DNA from: Candidatus Peregrinibacteria bacterium
GTDB lineage: Bacteria > Patescibacteriota > Gracilibacteria > Peribacterales > Peribacteraceae
Assembly: GCA_030649955.1 (NCBI GenBank)
Contig: JAUSFD010000025.1
Coordinates: forward strand, 1-64,000
DNA length: 64,000 nucleotides
Reading direction: 5' to 3'
Shown here: positions 2,515-25,968 of the stretch, piece after piece
Numbering within the stretch: position 1 is the first letter of the stretch
How the letters are laid out: every line of letters begins with the position of its first letter
The notes under the pieces: model-generated
What the model saw: the letters and a program-made list of their open reading frames with translations, nothing else
Database searches by the model: none
What the model was told of the DNA's origin: nothing
Translations under genes and position numbers: made by a program

Positions 2515-3320
2515 CTCCTTCCCTTGGAGAATCGTCGTCCACGAACGATGCGCATCCTCATCCCTGTTCCCTGTTCCCGGTTCCCCCCATCGGAAGCACC
2601 ACGAACTCCACCCGATCTCCCAGCGTCGTAGAGCTCGTAGTACTTGCCCCACTGATGCGGGTTCTCGCCATACCGGAGCTGCTTTCCTCGGTGGAAGATC
2701 ACGCCGCCGTTGGCGCCTTTGGAGAGGTACGCGGTGATGGCGCTGTCGTATGCGGCGGTGTGGAGAAATGCCTTCGAAGCAAGGGTACTGCGCGTCTCTG
2801 CAGAAGTGTCTCCACTCATCTCCATCTCTCTGAGGATCGCGTCGTAATCCGCGGGATCGCAGAGAACAGTGACGCTCGCGGCATTCTTCGCAGCACTCCT
2901 CAAAAGAGTTGGTCCGCCGATGTCGATCTGCTCGATCACCTCCGCCTGGGATTTCGAGGGATCGGCAGCTGTGCGCGCGAAGGGGTAGAGATTCACGACG
3001 ACCAAGTCGATGGGCTCGATGCCATGCTGCTTCGCCTCCTCTTGATGACTCTTTTCCTCCCGTCGAAAGAGAATGCCTCCCATGATCATCGGGTGCATCG
3101 TCTTCACACGCCCGCCAAAGCATTCGGGGAATCCTGTCACCTCCTCCACTCCGGTGACAGCGATGCCTGCATCCTCCAGAGCTTTCTTCGTCCCACCCGT
3201 CGAAATGAGGGTGAACTGTAGCTTCAGGAGCCTCTGCGCCAGTGCGACGATACCCGTCTTGTCGGAAACGGAGAGGAGCGCGCGTCTGGGCATGAGAGGA
3301 GCCGGAACCGGCCGCGGCAT
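2511..3320 (-). CDS. purH: PurH N-terminal part: IMP cyclohydrolase, frameshifted
   Basis: The IMP cyclohydrolase half of PurH, which closes FAICAR to IMP. RALLSVSDKTGIVALAQ, STGGTKKALEDAG, VTGFPECFGGRVKTMHP and VVNLYPFARTAA are diagnostic, and RYGENPHQ of the second domain follows. Soon after, the frame enters a gggaaca word array (2561-2588) that encodes GGNREQGTG and is then read to a stop at 2511. The rest of PurH continues in another frame. An insertion of 1 mod 3 bases, for example one extra 7-nt word or one extra G in the G6 run next to the array, would fuse the halves. Start at 3320 or 3293; homology favours the latter slightly. Confidence 0.85.
   Translation of the reverse strand: MPRPVPAPLMPRRALLSVSDKTGIVALAQRLLKLQFTLISTGGTKKALEDAGIAVTGVEEVTGFPECFGGRVKTMHPMIMGGILFRREEKSHQEEAKQHGIEPIDLVVVNLYPFARTAADPSKSQAEVIEQIDIGGPTLLRSAAKNAASVTVLCDPADYDAILREMEMSGDTSAETRSTLASKAFLHTAAYDSAITAYLSKGANGGVIFHRGKQLRYGENPHQWGKYYELYDAGRSGGVRGASDGGNREQGTGMRMRIVRGRRFSKGRR
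2561..2588. repeat. gggaaca word array inside purH
   Basis: On the minus strand about 3.6 copies of a 7-nt word (gggaacc, gggaaca, gggaaca, ggga) follow a run of six Gs. The array sits in the variable linker between the PurH domains, precisely where the reading frame is lost. The same words form intergenic palindromes at 11745, 40372, 44301 and 45455. Confidence 0.85.
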
Positions 3321-3528
3321 TGTCCCACAGGATCCTGTTTTCTTCTAGGCACGGCGACGTTTCTCTTCAAACTTTCGTTGGCTTTCTATAGCTGCACTTC
3401 TAGGAGTGATGTTCGCGGAGAAGCGCCGCCGTGCCAATCTCTCCGTTGCCCAAGGCTTTCCGTGTGTGTTTCTTTCACGTGGGAGGCCGATGATTGTCAA
3501 CGACAAAACGCTGCTGGGGTGGGAAAGT

Positions 3529-3537
3529 TGTTACAAT
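3529..3537 (+). promoter_or_regulatory. extended -10 promoter of the prepilin gene
   Basis: TGTTACAAT (TG, one base, TACAAT) lies about 52 nt before the prepilin ATG. No good -35 is present at 17 nt, as expected for an extended -10 promoter. Confidence 0.5.
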
Positions 3538-3589
3538 GCCCGGAGGAAACGGGTTCCGCGAGCCCATCCTCTTCTTTCCACCCCTCCCC

Positions 3590-4105
3590 ATGTCCCAGTC
3601 TCCCTCCTCTTCGTCGGGATTCACCCGGCTTCGCCGCGGCTTCACCCGACTTCGCCCTGGGGGGCTTCGCCGCGGTTTCACCCTCATCGAACTCCTCCTC
3701 GTCATCGGGATCATCGCGATCCTCGCTTCCATTGTCATCGTCGCCCTCAACCCCACGAAGCAATTGGGGGATCATCGCGACGCCCAACGCAGGAGCGATG
3801 TGAACACGATCATGAATGCGGTGTACCAGTGGGTGGTGGACAACGACGGGAGCCTCCCCGGCAACATCTCGACGGCTGCGAAGGAGATCTGCAAGTCGAC
3901 GGTGGACCCGACCGCTTGCATCGCGGATAACGGGGTGAACCTGCGCATGCTCAGTGGCGACTACCTGGTCTCCATGCCCTCTGATCCTCAGGCGCCAGAG
4001 ACGGGCACAGGCACCTGGTACACGATCCTGCGCGACGCGGATGAGCACGTGACGGTGAGCGCCTGGAATGCGGAGCAGTCGACACCGATCAGTATCACGC
4101 GGTGA
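3590..4105 (+). CDS. type IV pilin-like protein (prepilin)
   Basis: A 171-residue prepilin. The class III signal RRGFTLIELLLVIGIIAI is unmistakable: cleavage by prepilin peptidase would occur after the Gly, and the hydrophobic helix would form the pilus core. After the helix comes NPTKQLGDHRDAQRRSDV, typical of Candidate Phyla Radiation pseudopilins, then a globular domain with two cysteines (EICKSTVDPTACIAD). The ATG at 3590 was chosen; the frame is open upstream but without pilin homology. The leader before the cleavage site is built of duplicated GFTRLR-type units (GFTRLRRGFTRLRPGGLRR), reflecting a DNA repeat at 3618-3684. No assembly genes are adjacent, so whether it is a major pilin, minor pilin or secretion pseudopilin is open. 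Confidence 0.9.
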   Translation: MSQSPSSSSGFTRLRRGFTRLRPGGLRRGFTLIELLLVIGIIAILASIVIVALNPTKQLGDHRDAQRRSDVNTIMNAVYQWVVDNDGSLPGNISTAAKEICKSTVDPTACIADNGVNLRMLSGDYLVSMPSDPQAPETGTGTWYTILRDADEHVTVSAWNAEQSTPISITR

Positions 4106-4135
4106 GGGGGAAGCTGAGTACGAAGCTGCAGTGAA

Positions 4136-4157
4136 CAGCCTTCGTAAGCGAAGGCTG
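4136..4157. terminator. hairpin after the prepilin gene
   Basis: CAGCCTTCG and CGAAGGCTG form a perfect 9-bp stem with a TAAG loop, 31 nt after the prepilin stop. There is no T-run, so it is a weak intrinsic-terminator candidate or an mRNA 3'-end stabiliser. Confidence 0.4.
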
Positions 4158-4226
4158 GAGCTCCCTGCTGGATCAGGTGAGGAATGCTGTGGCTCCAAAA
4201 TGGCATGGTGCACCGGTGATGATCTC

Positions 4227-4254
4227 TTGACCCCTTATGCTAAGGGTGTACATT
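4227..4254 (+). promoter_or_regulatory. promoter with operator-like inverted repeat, antirepressor gene
   Basis: TTGACC (4227-4232) and TACATT (4249-4254) are 16 nt apart. Between them CCCTTA (4232-4237) and TAAGGG (4241-4246) form a perfect 6-bp inverted repeat with a 3-nt centre, placed where a bound regulator would block polymerase. The start codon lies only 9 nt after the -10, so the mRNA should have almost no leader. Confidence 0.55.
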
Positions 4255-4263
4255 CATTCACCT

Positions 4264-5112
4264 ATGAATAGCACTCCACCCCCACCAGTCCGCATCGCGA
4301 TCTTTCGCAGCAAGGAGATTCGTAAAATATTGCATAAAAATGAATGGTGGTTCTCGATCATCGATGTGATAGGTGCACTAATAGATAACGAACGAGCGCG
4401 AAAATACTGGAACGATCTCAAGCGTAAGTTAACAGAGGAAGGATATTCCGAGGTGTCCGATAAAATCGGACAACTGAAACTCCCTGCATCTGACGGAAAA
4501 AGTTACCTCACAGATTGTGCAAGTACGGAGACTCTCTTCCGCATCATCCAGTCCATCCCGTCCCGGAAGGCCGAACCCTTCAAGCGATGGCTCGCCAAGG
4601 TCGGCTATGAGCGTGTGCAGGAAATCGAAGATCCTGAATTGGCGACCAAACGCACCCGTGCTCTCTACAAAGCCAAAGGCTATCCCGATGGCTGGATCGA
4701 GAAACGCATGCGCGGCATTGCCGTGCGTGAACAACTCACGGGTGAATGGCAGAAACGAGATGTGAAAGAAGGGATCGAGTACGCCATCTTGACCGCAGAA
4801 ATCTCCAAGGCAACGTTCGGGATTACTCCCGCCGAGTACAAAACGAAGAAGAAATTGAAACGCGAGAACCTCCGTGATCACATGAATGACCTGGAACTCA
4901 TTTTCACGATGCTCGGCGAAGCGGCAACGACGGAGATCACGCAGAAGAAGGATGCGCGGGGATTCGGTCAGAACCGTGATACAGCGCGGAAAGGCGGGAA
5001 GATCGCGGGAGACGCGCGCAAGAAATTGGAATTGGAGAGTGGAAAGCCGGTCATTTCAAAGGAGAACTACCTCGACCTTCCAAGGAAGGAAGAGCTGCCG
5101 GAACTTCCGTAG
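4264..5112 (+). CDS. BRO-N domain protein, phage antirepressor / DinD-like family
   Basis: A 282-residue protein with an N-terminal BRO-type DNA-binding domain (about residues 10-110; WWFSIIDVIGALID, RKYWNDLKRKL, then TLFRIIQSIPSRKAEPFKRWLA). The C-terminal domain (KGIEYAILTAEISKATFGITPAEYK, then LRENLRDHMNDLELIFTMLGEAAT) is that of the widespread DinD/antirepressor family. Family members are phage antirepressors or damage-inducible proteins of uncertain role. The ATG at 4264 is preferred over an in-frame one at 4237, because the latter lies inside the promoter's inverted repeat. The gene is AT-richer than its neighbours and ends 10 nt from the 3' end of a tRNA gene, which suggests acquisition with a mobile element; no integrase is nearby. 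Confidence 0.85.
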   Translation: MNSTPPPPVRIAIFRSKEIRKILHKNEWWFSIIDVIGALIDNERARKYWNDLKRKLTEEGYSEVSDKIGQLKLPASDGKSYLTDCASTETLFRIIQSIPSRKAEPFKRWLAKVGYERVQEIEDPELATKRTRALYKAKGYPDGWIEKRMRGIAVREQLTGEWQKRDVKEGIEYAILTAEISKATFGITPAEYKTKKKLKRENLRDHMNDLELIFTMLGEAATTEITQKKDARGFGQNRDTARKGGKIAGDARKKLELESGKPVISKENYLDLPRKEELPELP

Positions 5113-5122
5113 TGAGGAGATG

Positions 5123-5197
<75 letters not shown>

Positions 5198-5273
5198 ACA
5201 TCGCCGGGAGATAGTAATCGATTCTGGTAGAAAGAGCAGAATTATCTATTACGCCCCGCTCCGCGGGACTGGG

Positions 5274-5291
5274 CTCTGAGCTAGGGCGGCA
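5274..5291 (-). other. 18-bp duplicate of the tRNA-Thr 5' end
   Basis: ctctgagctagggcggca at 5274-5291 is an exact copy of 5181-5198, which covers the tRNA's 5' acceptor strand and start of the D arm. Nothing beyond resembles a tRNA. It is either the scar of a tandem tRNA copy or a duplicated target of an integration event. Confidence 0.7.
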
Positions 5292-5428
5292 GGAGCCGTG
5301 AGATCATGCATCACTTGATACGTTTCGGCAAGACCAGCACCACTGCCGATCTCGATAGGGTAAACTTGATTCGATACCCTTGCATTCCAGTGCTGTGTGA
5401 GGGAACATTTGCCAAATTTTTCCACTCT

Positions 5429-13831: not shown

Positions 13832-15208
13832 TCAATCAGCAACATCTTTCCTCCGTTCCTTTACCTCTCCTCTCTTCCGCTTGTCTTGAAGTATCTTCGC
13901 CTTTGCCTTCCTCGAACGCCTCTGCTTCTGCTTCGCGATGCGGTGCTGCTCCTGACCACGGGCGGAATCATCACCCTTCACTTTCTCCTCAATCTTCTCG
14001 AGGAGGAGCTTGTACGCGGCGATGCGATTGCGGCTCTGCTCACGTTGATCCTGCACACGGACATTCACGTTGAGCGGAGCGTAGTGGAGCTCGACACAAC
14101 TCGATGTTTTGTTGATCTTCTGACCGCCGTGCCCGGAGCCACGGACGAAGTGCTCCTCGATATCCGCTGCAGAAATCTTCAGCTCACGCGCGATCGTGAG
14201 GTACTTCTCCGAGAGTTCTACCGGGAAGTGGAATGACGGCGCGTGCACGGGCTTCGGGAGATCGTGCGCGGTGAACTTCGCGGTAAGCGCGTGGACGAGC
14301 GAGATCTGGTAATGGAGGTAGTAGTCACGATTCTCCATGGATTCCATCTTGTGGAACAGGAGGACATCGAAGAGTCCGGCGATCAGCAAATACTCGGAAA
14401 AGAGTGATTGTGCATCTTGATGCACGCCGTACCATTCGAGAATCTGGCGGTACTCGTCCTCCGGGAACATGAATGCTTCAGTGTCGTAGGAACGGAGGCA
14501 CATCATCGCGAGGTACGCGAGGTCCTCGTACGGATGCCCAATCCGACACCAGTCACAGTCGATGATACCGACTGTCTCTCCCGCATCATCGACGAGGAGA
14601 TTGCCGTGGTGGAAGTCACCGTGGACGAAGCAGAGCTCGCCCTGCTGGACACTGCGGATGTGCTGTTCAACGCGCGTAAATGCGAGGGCGAGGCGCTGCT
14701 GCGCGTGCGGGGAGAGCAGATGTCCCAGAGCGTTGAGTCCGTTCTGCATCTCCGTAAGAAATGGCAAACGCTCATCGAAGAACGTGTGGAGCTTGCCCTT
14801 CGTCGCATCGTGCATGCTCCGCATCGCGGCGCAGACGGTCTTCGTCTCTGCATCCGCTGCAGACGCAACCTGCTCCCACGAATCGAGGATGTGTCCGGGA
14901 ATACGTGCGTACATCGTCCACAGCACACCCTCCTCTACGATGTACGGATGCCCCTCGTGCGTCTCGATGGGGAGCGGCAAACGCAGACTTGTGAGCGCAC
15001 TCGCCGCGCGGATGAGCGACGTCTGCTCACGGAAGGTGTCGATCACCTTGGGGGTACTGGGCTTTCCGCGCAGCACGTGTGCGCCATCGAGGATGTACAC
15101 CGCAGAGAGCACAGCGTGCTCGGCAGGCACGATCGCCTTCGCCTCGATACCGAACCGGCGCGCGAGACCGCGGAGGAAATTCAGGGGATAGGCGTCCCTC
15201 AGAGGCAT
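13832..15208 (-). CDS. APH/choline-kinase-like phosphotransferase fused to a GGQ release-factor domain
   Basis: A 458-residue two-domain protein in a single uninterrupted frame. Residues about 1-320 are an aminoglycoside-phosphotransferase-like kinase with Brenner motif FVHGDFHHGNLLV (about 194-206) and metal-binding IIDCDWCRIGHPYEDLA (about 215-231). Residues about 340-458 are a class I release-factor catalytic domain: EEHFVRGSGHGGQKINKTSS with GGQ at about 361-363, NVRVQDQREQSRNR, and a very basic tail (KQKQRRSRKAKAK), as in ArfB/C12orf65 ribosome-rescue hydrolases. Such factors release peptide from stalled ribosomes without decoding a stop. A kinase partner is unusual; its substrate is unknown. 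The start at 15208 is chosen over 15250 by homology. Confidence 0.88.
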   Translation of the reverse strand: MPLRDAYPLNFLRGLARRFGIEAKAIVPAEHAVLSAVYILDGAHVLRGKPSTPKVIDTFREQTSLIRAASALTSLRLPLPIETHEGHPYIVEEGVLWTMYARIPGHILDSWEQVASAADAETKTVCAAMRSMHDATKGKLHTFFDERLPFLTEMQNGLNALGHLLSPHAQQRLALAFTRVEQHIRSVQQGELCFVHGDFHHGNLLVDDAGETVGIIDCDWCRIGHPYEDLAYLAMMCLRSYDTEAFMFPEDEYRQILEWYGVHQDAQSLFSEYLLIAGLFDVLLFHKMESMENRDYYLHYQISLVHALTAKFTAHDLPKPVHAPSFHFPVELSEKYLTIARELKISAADIEEHFVRGSGHGGQKINKTSSCVELHYAPLNVNVRVQDQREQSRNRIAAYKLLLEKIEEKVKGDDSARGQEQHRIAKQKQRRSRKAKAKILQDKRKRGEVKERRKDVAD

Positions 15209-15299
15209 AGTGCGGGGTGAGTGTTCTTTTGCAGTATACAGGATGTGCATTTGCTCGTCTCTGGGGAAGTCCGAAGAGACTGAAGATACGGACGAATAA

Positions 15300-16823: not shown

Positions 16824-19800
16824 ATGGCCCTCTTCGGTAATTTATTCGGGAAAGGGAAAGCAGAGGATGACAAAGCTGCTGCGAAGAAGACGCCAGCAAA
16901 TAAGGGGGCATTGGAAAAGAGGCAGCAGGCAGAGACAGCGCCCCTGCAATTGGAGCTGAAGCAGGTCTTCACTACCAAGGAAGCTCTATACAATATCACA
17001 AAGCCACTGGGAGTCGACCACTTGAATGTAGAGGGACGGAATTACGTTATCGCTGCAATGAATGATCAACTATGCATCTTTGGTATGGATGGAAAATGCA
17101 TACGTGATTTGGACAAGGACGATAGGAGTTCAGGAGAAGCGGTTGTGGCCTGGCGTGCTATTTGTACCGCTCTAGGAAAACGAGGACTGCAGAGAGGAGA
17201 GAGTACTCCTCAGTTCATTGGTACTGACGATCTCCCCTTCTACATGCAGGAGGATGCAAAACAAGCCATAGGGACCTACAGGAACACATTTCTCGAGCAG
17301 TTGTCGAAAGACTACGTAAGACATGAGATGAAGAAGGCAACGCTCTCCGTGATTCTCAATGGCAAGTACATACTGCTCTGGGATCCTCAAGAACGTGCAT
17401 TCGTCGCATGGCAAACAGAACTCGATGGTCGCCCCCAACTCCCTCGGAATTGGATCCGCTACTCCACCGCAACAGCAACGGGCGTACCGGAAGACCTCAC
17501 CGAACACCTCAGAGGACTATTTGCCTCCGCAGAGAAGTACAAGGATTGTAAACGAGTGAACGATACGTACGTCGCTGTCATTGATAACAATAGAGGTATT
17601 GGATTTGTGCGGGATGACGATAGAGCGAACATTGTGTACCCGGATGCGCTCCCCGGAATCCGGGAGAACTTCGTCGTAGACCCGAACGACGATCAGACGG
17701 TGTTCTACTGCCAGCACGAAAAACCCACCGACATCTACGAACTCAACGTGAGCGGAGATCCGACGAAATGGGAAGCGCGTCTCATTCACCTCCCAGAAAC
17801 GAAGTCGTACTCGAAGATAGAAAAACTCAATATCCACCCGAGCGGGAAATTCTTCGATTGCTGGGCCCTCCAGACAATAATGGTCATGCGGAAAGATGAG
17901 TACTCAGGGGAGGAGAAGAGAGTGAGAGAGAACCACATGGGCATTGTCCACATCGACCGCCAGACGGGCGCAGAGTTACCGAGCCCGTTCATTGGCGTCT
18001 CATCGCACAGGTATAACGACGGGGGGGAGTTATGCGGCCTCCAGAATGGGAATGTGCCCGTGGTGTATCAGACAAACCTCGGAACAATCGCAAAGGAGCA
18101 GCAACGCCAGCAAGCAGCGAAGAAAGCGAGCACCATCGACATCGAAACACTCATGGATAGCGACACAAGTACAAAAGGACCGGGAAAGGAGGATGAGCCA
18201 CAGGAAGACACGACCGTCTACAACCGGCAACGCGCACAATGTGATGAAAAATTCCTTGGAGCGATACAGCAAGCGACAACTCCTGAACAATTGGAGCAGA
18301 AGGTCATTGGTCCACTTAATAGAGTTCGCACCGGTCTCCGCGATCGGAAACGGCTGAGTCCTGCTGCCGTACGCTACATCACAGAGACCGTCGATGCAGC
18401 ACTACAAAAGAAGAACCAGGAGCTTGCTAGTGCGACGGCAACAACGCTCATCGGGCAGATTCGTACACAGCTCGGCGAGAGGAATCTCCCGCTGAATCGA
18501 CTCGAAGCCATCCAAGCAGATGTGAAAGCAGCACAGAATCTTCCCAATCTTCCCGAGCCGTTGTCGCAGACAATCGGCGAACTCACGCAGCTATTCGAAG
18601 GACGCCTGGCCGAAGCGATGAATAGAGATGCAGTCGAAATAGAAAGGGAAGTCCGAGCAGAAATTGACCGTGAACGTCAGCGGGCGAGCACATTCCATAG
18701 CTTGCCTCAGGTCACGCAGTGGCTGCGCGAAACGATCCCCACGCTCCAGAGCAAGTACGTCGAGCAGCAGGGTCGGTGCCTTCCCGGTAGTCCCGTCTTC
18801 GGTGTGTACCAGCGTGCGCAGGAGACACTACGAGAGCTCGGAGCTGCGACGCGGAAGAAGTTTGAGCAGAACTACGACAAGCTCCGCGAGCAGGCGAGGA
18901 GTCAGCTCTCTGCGACGATTACCTCTGTTGGGCTCAACATCGATGAATGCTTCGCTACGCTGAGACTGGCAGCATTTCCCTCGCGAGAAGCAGCGGAGAA
19001 CGCCATCGACACAGGCGCTGACTACCGGCAACTCGAGCAGCAGATCCAGATCATTGAAGAGCAAGATCGAGAGGAAGCGAGAACACTCCGAGACAAGCTC
19101 CACGCCGGCCGGGCACGATTCATAGGAGAAGTGGAACGGAAGCTTGCCGCTGTGACAGACGATCAGGGGAAGAGAGTGTACAGATTTGGATCCATATCAT
19201 TCCCCATCTACGAAGCAGCCACGAAGAAAGTGGGTGCGAAGCAGACCGCAATCACTTTCATTCCCAGTGGAGGGGGAGGTGCCTCACCAGGCGAGACGCA
19301 GGGCAGCATTGTAGTGCGCGTGGAGACGGGCCGAGGGAAGAAAATCGACGTGATCCCGTGGGAGCAGAAGCTCGACGCAGAGAACTTCCAAACCGGAGTG
19401 ACCACCTACCGGGGAGTGGAGGACGGGAAGGGGGGGAAAGACAGACTGATCGCCCCATCGACGATGATGCAAGCGGAGTACTCGAAGATCCGCAAGCTCT
19501 ACCAGCGCTGGCAATCTGGGGAGCTCAAGCGCGAGTGGCAGAGCAGACGTGCAACGCTCATGCAGCTGTACCTCGGCAAACCGCGCTTCGATGCGCGCAT
19601 GCAGGCACGGGGCGAGCAAATCGAAGCTGTACCTGGCACGGGACGAGAACTGCCTGGCGGGAAGAACTTCACGGCAAGCCGTCAGCCACGCGGGAAAGCG
19701 GATAAGACCTGGCAGGGACAGTACAAGAAGCTCCTCGGAGAGTACGCGGACTTCTGCCAGCAGAATGCTATTCCCCTCCTGCGCGAGCTCGAGAGGATCG

Positions 19801-20894
19801 AACACGCTCCGGAGTCGGAGTACGCCAACGGCGTGGGCTTCGTCCCGAAGTGGAAGGATGAGTGGGTGGTCGCACCGGAAGATGAGGAAGTACTCGGCGA
19901 GATGGCGAGGCAGTTCAGCTTCCAGCTCGAGAAGCAGTGCGGACTCCTAGATCTCAAAGGGCCGCCGGGCACTGGCAAGGACGTCTACCTCCAGATCTTC
20001 GCCGAGCGCACGAAGCGACCGCTCTTTTCGCACGACTGCTCGAAGACGGACTCCGAGGGCGAACTCGTCGAGGACATCTTCTTTGAGGCGGAGGGCGGCG
20101 CGACCCGCACGGTGTTCGTCCCGTCGAAAATCCTCCAGGGCATCCAGACACCTGGGGCTATCATCTACATGAACGAGTTCAACCTGCTCCCGGAAGACAC
20201 GCAAAAGTTCCTCAATTCCCTCTTCGATTCCAAGCGGAGCCTCACCCTCAAGACGAAGTCCGGCCGCGTGATCAAGTCGCAGCCCGATGTGCTCTTCACG
20301 TGCTCACAGAACCCCAGCGAGGGGAAGCAATCACACCCCTCCGTGCTAAGCCGCATGGTGCACATCGAGGTGGATTACCCACCGCTCTACGGGAAGAAGA
20401 AGCCGGGCGATACGCGCAGTTCTCCTCCATTTTCCCCATCCGAGCCACTGAAGATTGCGCGCATGATGCGGGGATTCAAGGACTCTACTCTCGAGGAGAA
20501 TATGGAGAAAAACCCCTTCGTGAAGCACTGGGATTTCTACGCGAACGGCATCGGCGAGGATCCGAATCTTCCGCAGGCACAGCAGTTCGACATGCAAGTG
20601 ACCCTCTGTTTGGTCCAGCTGGGGAATTACCTACGCACGGAGTTCAAGAAGCACACGATCGAGGACGACGACAGCGCTGTCCCCGTGGCACTTCCCGTCA
20701 CTCTCCGCGAGATGCAGAGCTGCGGCACAGAACTGGGGAGTATCCCTGTGGAGGAGAAAACGAGAGCTGGAGCTGATCCAGAGAAGCTTGCAAAGTTGCT
20801 CATGCGCCGCTACTTCCTCATGCACTTCCAGCCCAAAGAACGTCAGCCGATCGAGGATGCCGTGCGGAGCTGGAGCATGCAGAAGCGCACGTGA
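16824..20894 (+). CDS. giant MoxR/dynein-like AAA+ ATPase
   Basis: A 1356-residue cytoplasmic protein. Residues about 50-410 are beta-rich and propeller-like (LWDPQERAFVAWQTELDG; IEKLNIHPSGKFFDCWAL). A charged linker precedes a long helical region at about 470-790 (DREEARTLRDKLHAGRARFI). A basic region follows at about 840-1000. The AAA+ module occupies about 1010-1250, with Walker A GPPGTGKD at 1046-1053, sensor-1 FTCSQNPSE and arginine-finger-like SVLSRM. The Walker B reads YMNEFN, with Asn1117 in place of the usual Asp before Glu1118. MoxR-like ATPases act with VWA proteins to remodel or mature clients, and such a partner starts 4 nt downstream. N-terminal assignments are tentative. Confidence 0.85.
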   Translation: MALFGNLFGKGKAEDDKAAAKKTPANKGALEKRQQAETAPLQLELKQVFTTKEALYNITKPLGVDHLNVEGRNYVIAAMNDQLCIFGMDGKCIRDLDKDDRSSGEAVVAWRAICTALGKRGLQRGESTPQFIGTDDLPFYMQEDAKQAIGTYRNTFLEQLSKDYVRHEMKKATLSVILNGKYILLWDPQERAFVAWQTELDGRPQLPRNWIRYSTATATGVPEDLTEHLRGLFASAEKYKDCKRVNDTYVAVIDNNRGIGFVRDDDRANIVYPDALPGIRENFVVDPNDDQTVFYCQHEKPTDIYELNVSGDPTKWEARLIHLPETKSYSKIEKLNIHPSGKFFDCWALQTIMVMRKDEYSGEEKRVRENHMGIVHIDRQTGAELPSPFIGVSSHRYNDGGELCGLQNGNVPVVYQTNLGTIAKEQQRQQAAKKASTIDIETLMDSDTSTKGPGKEDEPQEDTTVYNRQRAQCDEKFLGAIQQATTPEQLEQKVIGPLNRVRTGLRDRKRLSPAAVRYITETVDAALQKKNQELASATATTLIGQIRTQLGERNLPLNRLEAIQADVKAAQNLPNLPEPLSQTIGELTQLFEGRLAEAMNRDAVEIEREVRAEIDRERQRASTFHSLPQVTQWLRETIPTLQSKYVEQQGRCLPGSPVFGVYQRAQETLRELGAATRKKFEQNYDKLREQARSQLSATITSVGLNIDECFATLRLAAFPSREAAENAIDTGADYRQLEQQIQIIEEQDREEARTLRDKLHAGRARFIGEVERKLAAVTDDQGKRVYRFGSISFPIYEAATKKVGAKQTAITFIPSGGGGASPGETQGSIVVRVETGRGKKIDVIPWEQKLDAENFQTGVTTYRGVEDGKGGKDRLIAPSTMMQAEYSKIRKLYQRWQSGELKREWQSRRATLMQLYLGKPRFDARMQARGEQIEAVPGTGRELPGGKNFTASRQPRGKADKTWQGQYKKLLGEYADFCQQNAIPLLRELERIEHAPESEYANGVGFVPKWKDEWVVAPEDEEVLGEMARQFSFQLEKQCGLLDLKGPPGTGKDVYLQIFAERTKRPLFSHDCSKTDSEGELVEDIFFEAEGGATRTVFVPSKILQGIQTPGAIIYMNEFNLLPEDTQKFLNSLFDSKRSLTLKTKSGRVIKSQPDVLFTCSQNPSEGKQSHPSVLSRMVHIEVDYPPLYGKKKPGDTRSSPPFSPSEPLKIARMMRGFKDSTLEENMEKNPFVKHWDFYANGIGEDPNLPQAQQFDMQVTLCLVQLGNYLRTEFKKHTIEDDDSAVPVALPVTLREMQSCGTELGSIPVEEKTRAGADPEKLAKLLMRRYFLMHFQPKERQPIEDAVRSWSMQKRT

Positions 20895-20898
20895 ACCC

Positions 20899-23800
20899 AT
20901 GCCCAGAGAATCCCTCACCCCTGGCCCCAACAGAGCCGAGCATGCACGCGAGATGCTCCGCCTCGCGGAGCGTGCGGCTGCAGGAAACCTCAAGGTACTG
21001 CCCGGGAAGCAGTGGGCGTATGCATACCCGAAAAACGCGGAAGCGCGGAACGCGATCCTCCAAGGACTCGTGAACGGCACAGTGCAACCCGATGCGGTAG
21101 CGGACCAATTGAAGCCACAGGCACTCCTCTACGATCAGAACGACCTCTCGCACGGGCTTGAGTACATGCAGGGCCGTATCCGCGATGCAACGGCAACAGT
21201 GGAGCACTACGACTACGACCGCTTCGCGCGGTTCATCGCGAGTATGCAGGGGAAGCAGGTGGACCTGACGACGGTGCAATCGCTCTACGACGGCACCGCG
21301 CAGTGCAGGACGCGCCGGAAGGTCTTCGACTCCTACGGAGGAACAGGGCAAACCCAGTTGCGCGCAGCCTTCCAGCATGAGGCTCGTGCAATCGCGAAGG
21401 ATTTCCCGACGATGCGTGGAATGACACGCGTTCTCAGTGCGCTGAAGCTCCACTGGATGGAGAGCGCGGGCTTCGCGAAGGGCGGTGAGACGGCAGCGGT
21501 CCAGCAGGAACTCACACCACTTGAGCGTGAGCTCGTGGAAGCGCTCCGCGCGCAATACACGCAGTACGCCGAGACCGGAGAAGAGGCTGCTTATGAAGCA
21601 CTCGCTCACGTTGTTCGCGAGTCTCTGCCGTCCATAGACCATCTCAAGGAACAGAGGAGCCCGAGCATGGAGCGTCTCGCAGAGGAGCTCAGGGAATTCG
21701 AAGATCGCGCTGTTCCCCCACAGACACCTGGGGATCCTGCCATCTCTCCGGATGATCAAGATGAATACATCACTCCTCCGCAGGAGGGTGGATTGGAATC
21801 ACCAGAAGGCCAGGCTCCGGTGATGTTCGAGATTTCACCATCGGGAACGAGCACGAAGCCGCTCATCGGTGACTACTGCGCCGGGAGGAAGAGCTATTAC
21901 GATGCGTCGGCGAAGACATGGAGCAAGCGAAAGAACCTCCAGAACTACAGAACGACCATACAAGGTGTAGAGCGACAGCAGTACCGCGGCGTCATCGATA
22001 CAGGACTCAAGTCGCTCCCGCTCCCTAACGGGTACGCCTTCGATGCGAGCACTCTCCAGTGCTCCGATGGGGCGAAGGGTGTCCTCCAGCGCGACCAGAA
22101 CGGGTGCTTCTACATCCAAGCGGATACGCCCTGTGCGTTCACCTGCGAATTTCTGAAGGAGGACCCGCTCTTCGCAGGTCCACCGATCGATGACGATCGA
22201 GAACCGCTCACGACGCAGTCGCTCTCGCACGCAACGGAGCAGTTCCTCCAGAGTCTCCAGGGGGATGACCTGCAGCGAGCCCAGCAGATCCGGCAGTACA
22301 TTCACCGCCAGCACTTCTATCCTGGCGGCGGTGACTTGAACGCTGCCCAAGCTCTCCAGCTCAAGCTCCGCAGTGCGTCGGCTGACACGTACATCCAATC
22401 ACTCGATGCCTCGGAGTACCTAGAATGCTACTCCGCCAATACGCTCTTCGTGCACAGCGCTCGACGCTTGAGAATTCCCGCACGGCTCGTCGTGGGGCAC
22501 AAGATCGAGTCCGCGAAGGATGGGAAAGCGAGAATCACAACGAGTACGGGGCACGCGTGGTCGGAAGTGTGGGATGGTTCGGCGTGGCGCCGCATCGATG
22601 CAACTCCGCCACCGAAACCTGAGGACATGAAGAAAGACCAGAAGGGCGATGTGGGAGGGCAGGGCGGGACGGGAACCGGGCAGGGTCCCCCCACCGAGGA
22701 AGCGAATGACGGGGGACTCCCTATGCCAGAGCAGCCGCAGCAAGGTGATATCACCGAGCAGGTGCGCGACCGCACGCTGCGGAAGCTGGAATCTGTGCAT
22801 GGGGATCGAATGGGCGAAGCGGACGAACAGGATGTTGCTCAGGGAGAGGAGACGATGGACGAAGCGCAGCGAGAGGTGAAGCAATCAGGAGGCAAAGCGC
22901 AGGAACTCCGGGACAAGACGAAGCAGGCCAAATCATTCGAGGACCTCGAGAATGTGCAGAAGGAGATTGATCAAGAGCAGCTCGGCGATCGACTGCAGGA
23001 AGAGCTGGAGAAAGACATCGCGGAGAAACTCGATCAAAAGAAACGCGAGATAGAGAAGCAAGTGAATGATATGCATGACGGAGGATTCATCGATGATGAG
23101 CAGAAGAAGAAACTCAAGGAGGCATTGGAGAAACAGAAGGGAAAGGAACTCGACACGCTGAAGAAGAACCTGGCGGAAAATCCTCTCTACAAGGAATACA
23201 ACGAGCTGAAGAGAGAGGTCATGCCCCTCGTGAAAGAGTGGACCGAGAAGCTCGCGAGGGAGCTCCCGAAAGTGCGCGAGATGCAGCCGGACGAGACGAA
23301 GCTCGCGCGTAGCGGGAAGATCAACAAGAAGGAGATGCACAAACCCCTCAAGCTCATGACAGGGAAGGTGAAGCACCCAAAAGTGGAGCTCGAGACTACC
23401 GTCCCGCGGTTCATTGCGAACGTCGTGCTCGATGTGAGTCTCTCGATGAAGGACGATGGCAAATTGCGCAATGGGAGAAAGTACCTGATCTTCATCAACG
23501 AGCTATTCTCCGCAATCTCCGAACAATACGGGTACATGCGCTTCGGCAACTTCACGTTTGCGCAAACGATCAGTGTGATTAAGACGTGCGGTCAGGATTA
23601 CAACGCATCGACCAGGTACACCTACGACGATGACGGACGTGAGATACGAGGGACGGTGAAGCAGCGCGTCATGGCGTGCTCACAGCCACGCGGCGGGACG
23701 AATATGCTCCCGGCAATGCAGAAAGTCGCAGCCGACCTCAGGCAAGAGAAGAAAAAGTACCCGGATCACTTCACGGCGCTGTACTACATCGGCGACGGAG

Positions 23801-24075
23801 AGGACACCTGCAAAAATGCGCCGAACGTCCGCGCATTCATGCAAAATTCCTCGAAAGAGGGCTTCGGTGAGCACGCACAGTCTGCGATCCTGATGGGGGG
23901 CGGAGCGGCGAAACAGATCCTCTCGAGCATCTTCGGCGAGAAGAACACCACCGTGGTTCCCCCGAATGCGAAGGATCCACAGGGGAGCTTCCGCGCACTC
24001 GTGAACGCGAGCATGGCGCAGATGATCGGCAACATCCGGACCTTTAAAGCGAAGCACCGGAGGAAGTTCGAGTGA
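20899..24075 (+). CDS. transglutaminase-like plus VWA domain protein
   Basis: A 1058-residue protein coupled to the AAA+ gene by a 4-nt gap. Residues about 440-570 are a transglutaminase-like (papain-fold) domain with a complete triad: Cys510 (LECYSANTLF), His552 (GHAWSEVW) and Asp567 (RRIDATPP). A glycine-rich linker and a long charged coiled coil (about 640-800; EKDIAEKLDQKKREIEKQV) lead to a C-terminal VWA domain at about 838-1058. This has an intact metal site: DVSLSM (Asp845, Ser847, Ser849), Thr934 (GGTNM) and Asp966 (GDGED). No signal peptide, so probably cytoplasmic. The pairing with a MoxR-type ATPase suggests a client-processing machine in which the peptidase-like domain cleaves or crosslinks. 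The substrate is unknown. Confidence 0.87.
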   Translation: MPRESLTPGPNRAEHAREMLRLAERAAAGNLKVLPGKQWAYAYPKNAEARNAILQGLVNGTVQPDAVADQLKPQALLYDQNDLSHGLEYMQGRIRDATATVEHYDYDRFARFIASMQGKQVDLTTVQSLYDGTAQCRTRRKVFDSYGGTGQTQLRAAFQHEARAIAKDFPTMRGMTRVLSALKLHWMESAGFAKGGETAAVQQELTPLERELVEALRAQYTQYAETGEEAAYEALAHVVRESLPSIDHLKEQRSPSMERLAEELREFEDRAVPPQTPGDPAISPDDQDEYITPPQEGGLESPEGQAPVMFEISPSGTSTKPLIGDYCAGRKSYYDASAKTWSKRKNLQNYRTTIQGVERQQYRGVIDTGLKSLPLPNGYAFDASTLQCSDGAKGVLQRDQNGCFYIQADTPCAFTCEFLKEDPLFAGPPIDDDREPLTTQSLSHATEQFLQSLQGDDLQRAQQIRQYIHRQHFYPGGGDLNAAQALQLKLRSASADTYIQSLDASEYLECYSANTLFVHSARRLRIPARLVVGHKIESAKDGKARITTSTGHAWSEVWDGSAWRRIDATPPPKPEDMKKDQKGDVGGQGGTGTGQGPPTEEANDGGLPMPEQPQQGDITEQVRDRTLRKLESVHGDRMGEADEQDVAQGEETMDEAQREVKQSGGKAQELRDKTKQAKSFEDLENVQKEIDQEQLGDRLQEELEKDIAEKLDQKKREIEKQVNDMHDGGFIDDEQKKKLKEALEKQKGKELDTLKKNLAENPLYKEYNELKREVMPLVKEWTEKLARELPKVREMQPDETKLARSGKINKKEMHKPLKLMTGKVKHPKVELETTVPRFIANVVLDVSLSMKDDGKLRNGRKYLIFINELFSAISEQYGYMRFGNFTFAQTISVIKTCGQDYNASTRYTYDDDGREIRGTVKQRVMACSQPRGGTNMLPAMQKVAADLRQEKKKYPDHFTALYYIGDGEDTCKNAPNVRAFMQNSSKEGFGEHAQSAILMGGGAAKQILSSIFGEKNTTVVPPNAKDPQGSFRALVNASMAQMIGNIRTFKAKHRRKFE

Positions 24076-24254
24076 AATTCATGGAAGCGGTCAGTTGCTG
24101 CTATCCGGAGCTTCAGCCAACAGCTTTCGCTATGCATTCCTCAGGACCGCAATCCTTGCAACTGCGCTCAGCGCTTCGAGGCAATCTTCTTGAGTTCCTG
24201 CAAACACCCCCCCCCTCATTTTTTTCGTAAACGGAGGCAGGCTAGCTCTTTTCC

Positions 24255-24263
24255 TGCTAAAAT
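24255..24263 (+). promoter_or_regulatory. extended -10 promoter of the Pif1-like helicase
   Basis: TGCTAAAAT ends 13 nt before the ATG at 24277, giving a leader of only a few bases. Confidence 0.5.
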
Positions 24264-24276
24264 CTGTTCCATTCTC

Positions 24277-25968
24277 ATGGACAAAACTTCCCCGAATCAG
24301 GCCGTACTCACGAGTTGCCAAGCGAAAGGACTCGATGTGTTTGAGCGTCAGGGGAATGTCTTCCTCACCGGCGCGGCCGGCACCGGCAAGAGCTTCCTCC
24401 TCCAGCGCTATCTTGCAGGGAAGCCCACGGCAAGCTTTCCCATCGTTGCAAGCACCGGGGCTGCCGCTGTCCTTGTCGGAGGGAGAACGTTCCACAGCTT
24501 CTTTGGATTAGGAATTCTGGAAGGCGGGCCTGACGCCGCAGTTCTCCGCGCCCTGAGGAGCAGAAAACTCATCAGTAGGCTCAACCGAGCTTGCTGCGTG
24601 ATCATTGATGAAGTATCGATGCTCCCTGGCACGACACTGAAGGCAGCGGAGACGGTCGCCCGGCGGGCCCGGGGGAGCAGTGAACCATGGGGAGGACTGC
24701 GGATCATCGCTGTTGGGGACTTCGCGCAGCTCCCTCCCGTGACACCTGACAAGAAGGATAAAGATTGGGCTTTTTTGCATCCGGTCTGGCAAGAGAGTGA
24801 CTTTCAGCCAGCGCTCCTCTCGACCGTCATGCGCACGCAGGACATTGAGTTTTTGACGATTCTGAATTTCGTCCGGGAAGGAATCGTGAATGATCAAGTT
24901 CATGAATTTCTGAACCGCCGTATCACCACATCAACCGAACGTGAGGAAGGAACACGCTTGTATCCGCATCGCGCACAAGCAGAGGCCTACAATCTTCGAC
25001 GATTGGAAGCGATTGCCCGTCCGCTTCGTTCATTCCAGACACAGTACACAGGCAAAGAGCAATTCATCGAAGCGGCGAAGAAAGTAGTTCCTATTCCCGA
25101 AACACTGCTTTTAAAAGAAGGCGCCCTCATCATGATGCGCAAGAACGACATCACCGGTGGATTGCACTACGTGAACGGCAGCTTGGGGTACATTCAGGAT
25201 ATCATGGACGATTCTTTGGGGATCACACTCTTCTCCGGAGAGGAGATCGAGGTGGGCAGGGAAAAATTCTCCTACCTCGATGGAGATGGCAACGAGGTCA
25301 TCGCTGCTTGGAACTTTCCCGTCACACTCGCATGGGCGACGACGATTCACAAGGCTCAGGGCGCCTCGCTCGACCGTATGATCGTTGACCTGCATCAACT
25401 CTGGGAACCCGGGCAGGCGTACGTGGCTCTCAGCCGTGTCCGTTCGGGCTCGGGTCTGATGATAGAGCGCTGGAGTCCAGCTTCCATTCTGGCCGAACCG
25501 CTCGTCACGCAGTTCTACAACACCTTGGCTGACCAAGCACAGAAGTACGTTCCACGACCGCTCTATGTTCCACCGCGCGCGATGCAGGAAGTACCCAGCG
25601 TAAAACGAAAAGTTGGGCTCGTACGACAGCAGCGGGCACAAACAATCGCTCGGCTCATCAAAGAAAAAGTCAGCCTCGAGAACATCGCGGAGCAATGGGG
25701 CATCAAGCAGGAACGTGTCATTCTCTACATTGAGAAACTCCTCGCAAGTGGTGCGAAATTCGATATCCAGTACCTCACATCGAATATTCCTGATCGGCAG
25801 AAGATCAGCGATGCATTTGAGGAGTGTGGTCACGATTTTCTGAAGCCGGTCTTCGAGGCACTCGGCGGCAGAGTTCCGTACGAAACCCTGCGACTCGTTC
25901 GCTGTGCTCGATACACCGAGATCCTTGAAAAAGCGGACAATCCCCAAGCGGAAAAAAATGGAGGCTGA
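24277..25968 (+). CDS. Pif1-like / RecD2-like superfamily 1 DNA helicase
   Basis: A 563-residue 5'-to-3' helicase of the Pif1 group. Motifs in order: Walker A FLTGAAGTGKSFLL (about 30-43), Ia ASTGAAAVLVGGRTFHSFFGLG, DEVSML (Walker B), GDFAQLPPV (motif III), LSTVMRT (motif IV region), TIHKAQGASLDRMIVDL (motif V) and YVALSRVRS (motif VI). The C-terminal ~110 residues form a helix-turn-helix segment (QRAQTIARLIKEKVSLENIAEQWGI) like the helicase-associated HTH domain of bacterial Pif1/RecQ proteins. It probably unwinds G-quadruplexes or replication barriers. The upstream 200 nt hold no gene. Confidence 0.92.
   Translation: MDKTSPNQAVLTSCQAKGLDVFERQGNVFLTGAAGTGKSFLLQRYLAGKPTASFPIVASTGAAAVLVGGRTFHSFFGLGILEGGPDAAVLRALRSRKLISRLNRACCVIIDEVSMLPGTTLKAAETVARRARGSSEPWGGLRIIAVGDFAQLPPVTPDKKDKDWAFLHPVWQESDFQPALLSTVMRTQDIEFLTILNFVREGIVNDQVHEFLNRRITTSTEREEGTRLYPHRAQAEAYNLRRLEAIARPLRSFQTQYTGKEQFIEAAKKVVPIPETLLLKEGALIMMRKNDITGGLHYVNGSLGYIQDIMDDSLGITLFSGEEIEVGREKFSYLDGDGNEVIAAWNFPVTLAWATTIHKAQGASLDRMIVDLHQLWEPGQAYVALSRVRSGSGLMIERWSPASILAEPLVTQFYNTLADQAQKYVPRPLYVPPRAMQEVPSVKRKVGLVRQQRAQTIARLIKEKVSLENIAEQWGIKQERVILYIEKLLASGAKFDIQYLTSNIPDRQKISDAFEECGHDFLKPVFEALGGRVPYETLRLVRCARYTEILEKADNPQAEKNGG

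Follow-up and report, generated by a model that had tools for sequence, protein, structure and literature searches.

The activases NorQ-NorD and CbbQ-CbbO each combine a MoxR-type AAA+ ATPase with a partner carrying a von Willebrand factor type A (VWA) domain, and Rea1 (midasin) is a single multi-AAA chain acting in ribosome assembly. In the accessible text of PMC13036017, a finger of NorD (residues 403–448) enters the pore of NorQ, touches its helix-2 insert and is required for remodelling. MoxR-vWA ternary conflict systems were described by Kaur et al. 2020 (PMC7159879), the available part of which includes a propeller class and third components that rarely carry transglutaminase-like thiol peptidases; an excerpt of PMC8195603 (2021) mentions that one further MoxR-vWA class has permuted transglutaminase-like peptidases. 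According to the sections available of PMC10907252 (2024), in which the word transglutaminase does not occur, retroelement-diversified targets are proposed as sensors in MoxR systems and CLec-AAA (an AAA+ protein with a fused variable lectin domain) is cited as the commonest such target in the Candidate Phyla Radiation (CPR). Literature searches, with most subscription papers outside their reach, turned up no publication describing a transglutaminase-VWA partner in CPR bacteria. Here we describe two adjacent genes (gene 1 and gene 2) in a 64,000-nt stretch from a Candidatus Peregrinibacteria bacterium (GenBank assembly GCA_030649955.1; positions 1–64,000 of contig JAUSFD010000025.1; hereafter the window), for which NorQD appears to be the closest structural model and which is best read overall, with a probability of about 0.5, as a NorQD-type motor that would gate a cytosolic papain-fold protease upon a recognised ligand.

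Gene 1 (16,824–20,894) and gene 2 (20,899–24,075) are both on the forward strand and encode proteins of 1,356 and 1,058 amino acids (aa), together 2,414 residues, in agreement with a first-pass annotation that proposed two giant open reading frames (ORFs) totalling >2,400 residues at 16,824–24,075. The 4 nt described there as the distance between the two starts is the gap between the gene 1 stop at 20,894 and the gene 2 ATG at 20,899. Chance ORFs are excluded because relatives keep both frames, with five full-length relatives of gene 1 (28–31% identity) and seven relatives, not all full-length, of gene 2 (41–47%). G+C content is practically the same for the pair (0.570) and for the window as a whole (0.569), and the genome, 1.67 Mb over 34 contigs with an estimated completeness of 98.6%, carries one copy. 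Neither protein has a hydrophobic (membrane) segment (maximum Kyte-Doolittle 19-mer 1.0), and both are, by sequence, predicted to be cytosolic, as previously suggested. NCBIfam returned no informative family for the pair. The pair is real and conserved and its MoxR/VWA-type architecture is well supported, with functional interpretation standing at about even odds; the earlier idea that separate genes had been condensed into two proteins was a guess for which we found no support.

The motor lies at the C-terminal end of gene 1 (~residues 1011–1260; 19,854–20,603), where Pfam AAA_5 is matched with E 2.3e-12 (47.5 bits against a cut-off of 22) and the closest PDB sequence matches are NorQ and CbbQ (E ~1e-12), bearing out the AAA+ assignment of the first-pass annotation. 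The P-loop is GPPGTGKD (Walker A; residues 1046–1053), and GTGKD, N1163, R1177 and R1295 are invariant in 6/6 gene 1 rows, the last three being presumably sensor 1, Arg finger and sensor 2. Core features of MoxR-class AAA+ proteins (CbbQ/GvpN/NorQ branch) are present except for the canonical Walker B Asp-Glu, since residues 1112–1118 (20,157–20,177) read hhhhNE, with Asn replacing Asp and N1117-E1118 invariant, in all six rows. The stretch aligned with the helix-2 region of NorQ and CbbQ (residues 1078–1092; 20,055–20,099) has a net charge of -5 to -7 in 6/6, an acidic pore insert in place of the GRxLL motif of NorQD and CbbQO. Unlike in those systems, the AAA+ gene also carries a propeller and ~1000 extra residues. 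In an AlphaFold2 (AF2) model of the first 990 residues (seven alignment rows; mean predicted local distance difference test (pLDDT) score 63), residues 35–425 (16,926–18,098) are predicted to form a WD40-like beta-propeller, and match propellers in Foldseek and in structural alignment; all 50 structural-alignment matches listed look like beta-propellers by title, the best of these having Z 16.5 over 259 residues (root-mean-square deviation (rmsd) 3.7), consistent with the propeller-like region noted earlier. This is followed in the model by a long helical region (residues 460–775; 18,201–19,148) and a small beta domain (residues 780–845; 19,161–19,358; low confidence).

Gene 2 differs from NorD and CbbO in carrying a transglutaminase-fold enzyme in addition to the VWA domain. 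Its AF2 model (16 rows; mean pLDDT 72, ~80–94 for the bulk of the enzyme and VWA regions) begins with a mostly helical region of partly low confidence (residues 1–270; 20,899–21,708), followed by a beta domain (residues 306–420; 21,814–22,158) and a transglutaminase-like core (residues 436–575; 22,204–22,623). Transglut_core passes the Pfam cut-off (E 2.2e-8) and was found in 16/16 members scanned, and C510, H552 and D567, the full catalytic triad claimed in the first-pass annotation, are invariant in 16/16 aligned relatives. Cys510 starts a helix (510–523), His552 is on a strand (551–558) and Asp567 follows another (563–566), an order along the model that appears to be that of a transglutaminase core; juxtaposition of the triad is thus judged from secondary-structure order and fold similarity rather than from distances. 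Residues 271–574 align with the periplasmic domain of TgpA (Z 18.0; 243 aligned residues; rmsd 3.6), which shares the combination of beta domain and transglutaminase core. By PDB titles (6g4h, 6g49) the TgpA enzyme domain is periplasmic, in contrast to gene 2, which lacks any membrane segment and in which the enzyme is fused to VWA.

The C-terminal part of gene 2 contains a helical linker (residues 643–788; 22,825–23,262), corresponding to the coiled coil predicted earlier, and a VWA domain (residues 838–1050; 23,410–24,048). VWA_2 misses the Pfam cut-off (E 0.033) and searches of the PDB with gene 2 by sequence alone gave nothing meaningful (antitoxin matches were weak), but residues 761–1049 of the model match the Rea1 metal ion-dependent adhesion site (MIDAS) domain with Z 22.7 and the NorD VWA domain with Z 21.1, making a VWA domain clear at the level of the predicted fold. 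MIDAS residues D845, S847, S849, T934 and D966 are invariant in 8/8 close relatives, as expected for the intact metal-binding domain that had been proposed. Rea1 shares the VWA fold and MIDAS and has no transglutaminase; NorQD and CbbQO share the AAA+ sequence family, the VWA fold and the division into separate AAA+ and VWA proteins. As the AAA+ module is closest to NorQ/CbbQ and the VWA domain to Rea1-MIDAS/NorD, each half, independently of the other, indicates one and the same type of motor pair.

A conserved segment is also found in gene 2 at the position of the NorD finger (residues 789–834; 23,263–23,400), placed at ~789–834 by offset from alignment of model residues 768–1047 with NorD 382–638, not residue by residue. 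Among seven relatives this is the most conserved of eight gene 2 segments (mean column identity 0.89, 57% invariant, compared with 0.82 and 49% for the VWA core), and it retains the highest mean identity (0.83) when the window protein, the most divergent row here, is included. In the monomer model pLDDT is <50 at 796–828 which, together with high conservation, is as expected for a segment ordered by a partner. Net charge of residues 800–828 is +5 to +9 in 8/8 rows, so that the gene 2 finger (basic) and the gene 1 pore insert (acidic) are oppositely charged in all rows, a pattern that docking partners would be expected to show.

These features suggest a sequence of events in which the AAA+ module of gene 1 would assemble into a ring, on which the VWA domain of gene 2 would dock with its basic finger (789–834) entering the acidic pore. 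Capture of a ligand by the propeller or the MIDAS face may then lead to ATP-driven twisting, with the helical linker relaying the turning of VWA and finger to the TgpA-like enzyme, whose active site would be exposed or fed and a target protein cut. The signal could run in either direction and, with the NE Walker B, either ATP hydrolysis or binding alone might suffice. The papain-fold thiol enzyme is most likely a protease rather than a transferase. TgpA, the closest structure, is described as a protease, and proteases and hydrolases use the same fold and triad as true transglutaminases; although fold and triad would also suit a machine that crosslinks or transamidates proteins, nothing points to an amine acceptor and such chemistry seems improbable here. 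The first-pass annotation is supported as to a two-protein MoxR-type/VWA machine with a transglutaminase-fold enzyme; the crosslinking that it also offered found no evidence. The purpose would be surveillance of invaders or of damaged or foreign proteins.

A single scan, run over 84,980 species genomes with gene 2 patterns alone, identified at least seven relatives, and the seven recovered are all in metagenome-assembled genomes of CPR bacteria (Levybacteria, Uhrbacteria, Daviesbacteria, Roizmanbacteria and Patescibacteria). We refer to these and the window pair as class I. Gene 1 is directly upstream of gene 2 in 5/5 loci with flanking sequence (L003, L004, L005, L007 and L009), as predicted for a pair conserved as neighbours; L006 and L008 begin within gene 2 and are outside this count. 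An N-terminal gene 1 piece is present on a separate contig of the L008 genome and none was found in that of L006. Flanking genes differ between loci, only gene 1 and gene 2 being conserved together, and include ftsA and ftsZ (L003), ftsZ (L004), GAPDH and enolase (L005), rpoA and S9 (L007) and S2 and EF-Ts (L009). In L003 (2,757–15,010) the pair has ftsA on one side and ftsZ on the other; in L004 (4,016–8,307) it is immediately upstream of ftsZ. In L008, a Daviesbacteria contig, gene 2 is directly followed by a gene for a 754-aa UG19 (defence-type) reverse transcriptase (3,143–5,407; PADLOC E 4e-54).

The pair is rare and patchy. The full protein was found in 0/39 other genomes examined, including 23 from the same family, and among 379 genomes of the phylum it is full-length in the window's own genome only. 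In the class of genome G402, 5/373 genomes have it, all five already among the relatives. No match to the pair was found in plasmid or phage records; profile searches of viral contigs gave no relative of gene 2 and, for gene 1, only four AAA+-only matches, within residues 1044–1187. In each of the 10 pairwise comparisons between relatives, conservation is lowest in the propeller, e.g. 28% identity between L003 and L007, compared with 50% for the helical region, 88% for the AAA+ core, 73% for the beta/transglutaminase region and 81% for VWA, although relative to the window protein the gene 1 helical region is about as low. Such divergence would fit a recognition module under changing selection.

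Profile searches added 14 transglutaminase-VWA loci, spread over 13 other genomes and forming a cousin branch related to class I in the beta/transglutaminase region (profile comparison E 9e-29, 99.8%) and in AAA+ (E 1.9e-6, 89.6% probability). An AAA_5-type gene is beside the transglutaminase-VWA gene, or one small gene away, in 10/14 loci, with the order swapped relative to the window (AAA_5-type gene downstream), and Walker B Asp-Glu is kept in 5/5. L033 and L036 stop at contig ends, and no AAA+ gene was seen in the stretch examined of L037, L047 and L048. A reverse transcriptase gene is found within the examined stretch at 8/14 loci; for the first 10 of the 14, five were observed where the per-genome number of such genes would predict 0.31 (P ~3e-6). 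A bAvd-like match is present at five of these eight loci (L032, L038, L039, L046 and L048; two under the Pfam cut-off), a count to which L034, L040 and L045 contributed no submitted Avd ORF.

Template/variable repeats typical of diversity-generating retroelements (DGRs) were identified in 7/7 loci examined (L032, L034, L038, L039, L040, L045 and L046; L048 is outside this count), a first repeat script having found them in 3/5 retroelement loci and a directed script adding the other two plus L045 and L046. The 90-nt stretches differ by 9 to 21 mismatches, which fall at template adenines in 14/14, 11/11, 9/9, 14/14 and similar proportions (lowest 18/21 and 14/16). Variation falls on the C-terminus of the AAA+ protein in L032, L034, L039, L040 and L045, and also on that of small neighbours in L038, L039, L040, L045 (two) and L046 (two); with the directed script, no variable repeat was found in the cousin AAA+ genes of L031, L035, L038 and L046. 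From their look, the variable ends may be C-type-lectin folds. Targets of the window pair may likewise change, because the cousin branch has hypermutated recognition domains, and the pairing, linked to such domains in related bacteria, is suggestive of a surveillance machine with gated protein cleavage. The window pair itself was considered as a retroelement target and rejected, its genome having no reverse transcriptase.

Other cousin loci vary in their gene content. In L045 (5,166–14,318) three variable-repeat genes (encoding the AAA+ protein and two small proteins) are behind the transglutaminase-VWA gene. In L031 (1–5,846) the AAA+ gene is followed by several ORFs that resemble one another, of which the one tested encodes leucine-rich repeats (LRR), and in L037 (229–1,083) a short-repeat protein is in the AAA+ gene's place beside the transglutaminase-VWA gene. 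L047 (6,536–9,937) has a 1,133-aa transglutaminase-VWA ORF and no AAA+ gene of the family in the examined stretch, and shares its genome with retroelement locus L046. The first-pass interpretation, partly supported overall, had overlooked this retroelement-tied second branch, as well as the fast-evolving propeller and the likeness to NorQD.

Several observations weigh against a ligand-gated surveillance protease. Class I loci have housekeeping surroundings and no recognisable defence island, and no PADLOC defence model matches the pair. A reverse transcriptase (RVT_1) is missing from the window genome, no DGR repeats were found in the window or the seven class I loci by a script that missed two of five known cases, and the window and retroelement branches are distantly related, to judge from the profiles. 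The propeller model is of low confidence, and the divergence of this domain could also be explained by weak or relaxed constraint. With the window row included, only 28% of finger positions are invariant (transglutaminase core 41%, beta domain 34%, VWA 32%), and ATP hydrolysis is possibly weak or altered, because the Walker B Asp is Asn in 6/6. A defence role for the window pair goes beyond present evidence, and caution about purpose is needed because of the housekeeping surroundings and the missing retroelement.

The same surroundings, the NorQ/CbbQ-like motor, a window genome with no retroelement and the lack of plasmid or phage matches would all suit a role in housekeeping maturation or quality control, with the AAA+/VWA machine remodelling one fixed client as in NorQD and CbbQO, the transglutaminase-fold domain trimming or holding that client and the propeller serving as adaptor. 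This is possible but somewhat doubtful, given a very patchy distribution (0/23 same-family genomes, own genome only among 379, and 5/373), a propeller that diverges far faster than the motor and hypermutated recognition domains in the cousins. No gene for cNOR or RuBisCO, as metalloenzyme clients, was found in a search limited to 10 neighbouring ORFs.

Dedicated anti-invader defence, abortive or neutralising, would make the pair the equivalent, in the CPR, of MoxR-vWA ternary conflict systems. Going by the available parts of PMC7159879 and PMC10907252, motor/VWA logic, peptidase and diversified sensor are shared with those systems, and in one class I locus (L008) the UG19-type reverse transcriptase is directly downstream of the pair. 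As far as PMC7159879 is available, the likeness extends to a MoxR-type AAA+ with vWA partner, peptidase domains, association with retroelements and, in one class, beta-propellers. However, the window pair has no third core component comparable to the VMAP, iSTAND, FtsH or propeller proteins of the systems described there; its propeller sits at the N-terminus of the AAA+ protein and not C-terminal to vWA; its P-loop is GPPGTGKD rather than the GXXXTAKS of the ternary propeller class; its transglutaminase and vWA are within one protein; and it is found in the CPR, a group omitted from the multicellularity statistics of that paper. The DGR-diversified MoxR/vWA sensors in the accessible text of PMC10907252 resemble the cousin branch (AAA+, vWA and peptidase, with a retroelement-mutated C-terminal domain), in contrast to the window branch with no retroelement. 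In the absence of a toxin-like effector, a third component, a defence island around class I or a PADLOC match for the pair, dedicated defence appears rather unlikely.

The 10 neighbouring ORFs scanned in the window encode transporter, membrane, helicase and tRNA synthetase proteins or are unmatched; no toxin-like effector, DUF58 or separate VWA gene was identified among them, which leaves little reason to read class I as an ordinary DUF58-type MoxR operon. One ORF on the reverse strand (13,832–15,250) combines an aminoglycoside-phosphotransferase-like domain with an RF-1 (peptidyl-tRNA hydrolysis) domain. Just downstream of the pair, an ORF on the forward strand (24,190–25,968) encodes a PIF1-like helicase with a C-terminal HTH_40 domain, the true start probably being internal to the listed ORF.

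More tentatively, the window pair and its cousins may be versions of one CPR-wide intracellular immune-like machine, with an invariant motor-protease core and swappable, fast-changing recognition domains. Its parts would be an AAA+ ring, a VWA finger and a transglutaminase-fold protease, with recognition by propellers in one branch and elsewhere by retroelement-hypermutated C-terminal domains or, in a few loci, by LRR or repeat proteins nearby. We know of no accepted purpose for the AAA+-lectin retroelement targets of CPR bacteria. The cousin branch supplies AAA+ targets with a conserved transglutaminase-VWA partner, making a gated thiol protease the likely output, and if this is true the commonest AAA+-fused retroelement targets of the CPR aim a protease. 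The finger/pore pairing provides a precise prediction of the docking site. The pair would add a further AAA+/VWA system to NorQD, Rea1 and CbbQO, in which motors insert metal or release an assembly factor, whereas here the motor seems to drive an enzyme.

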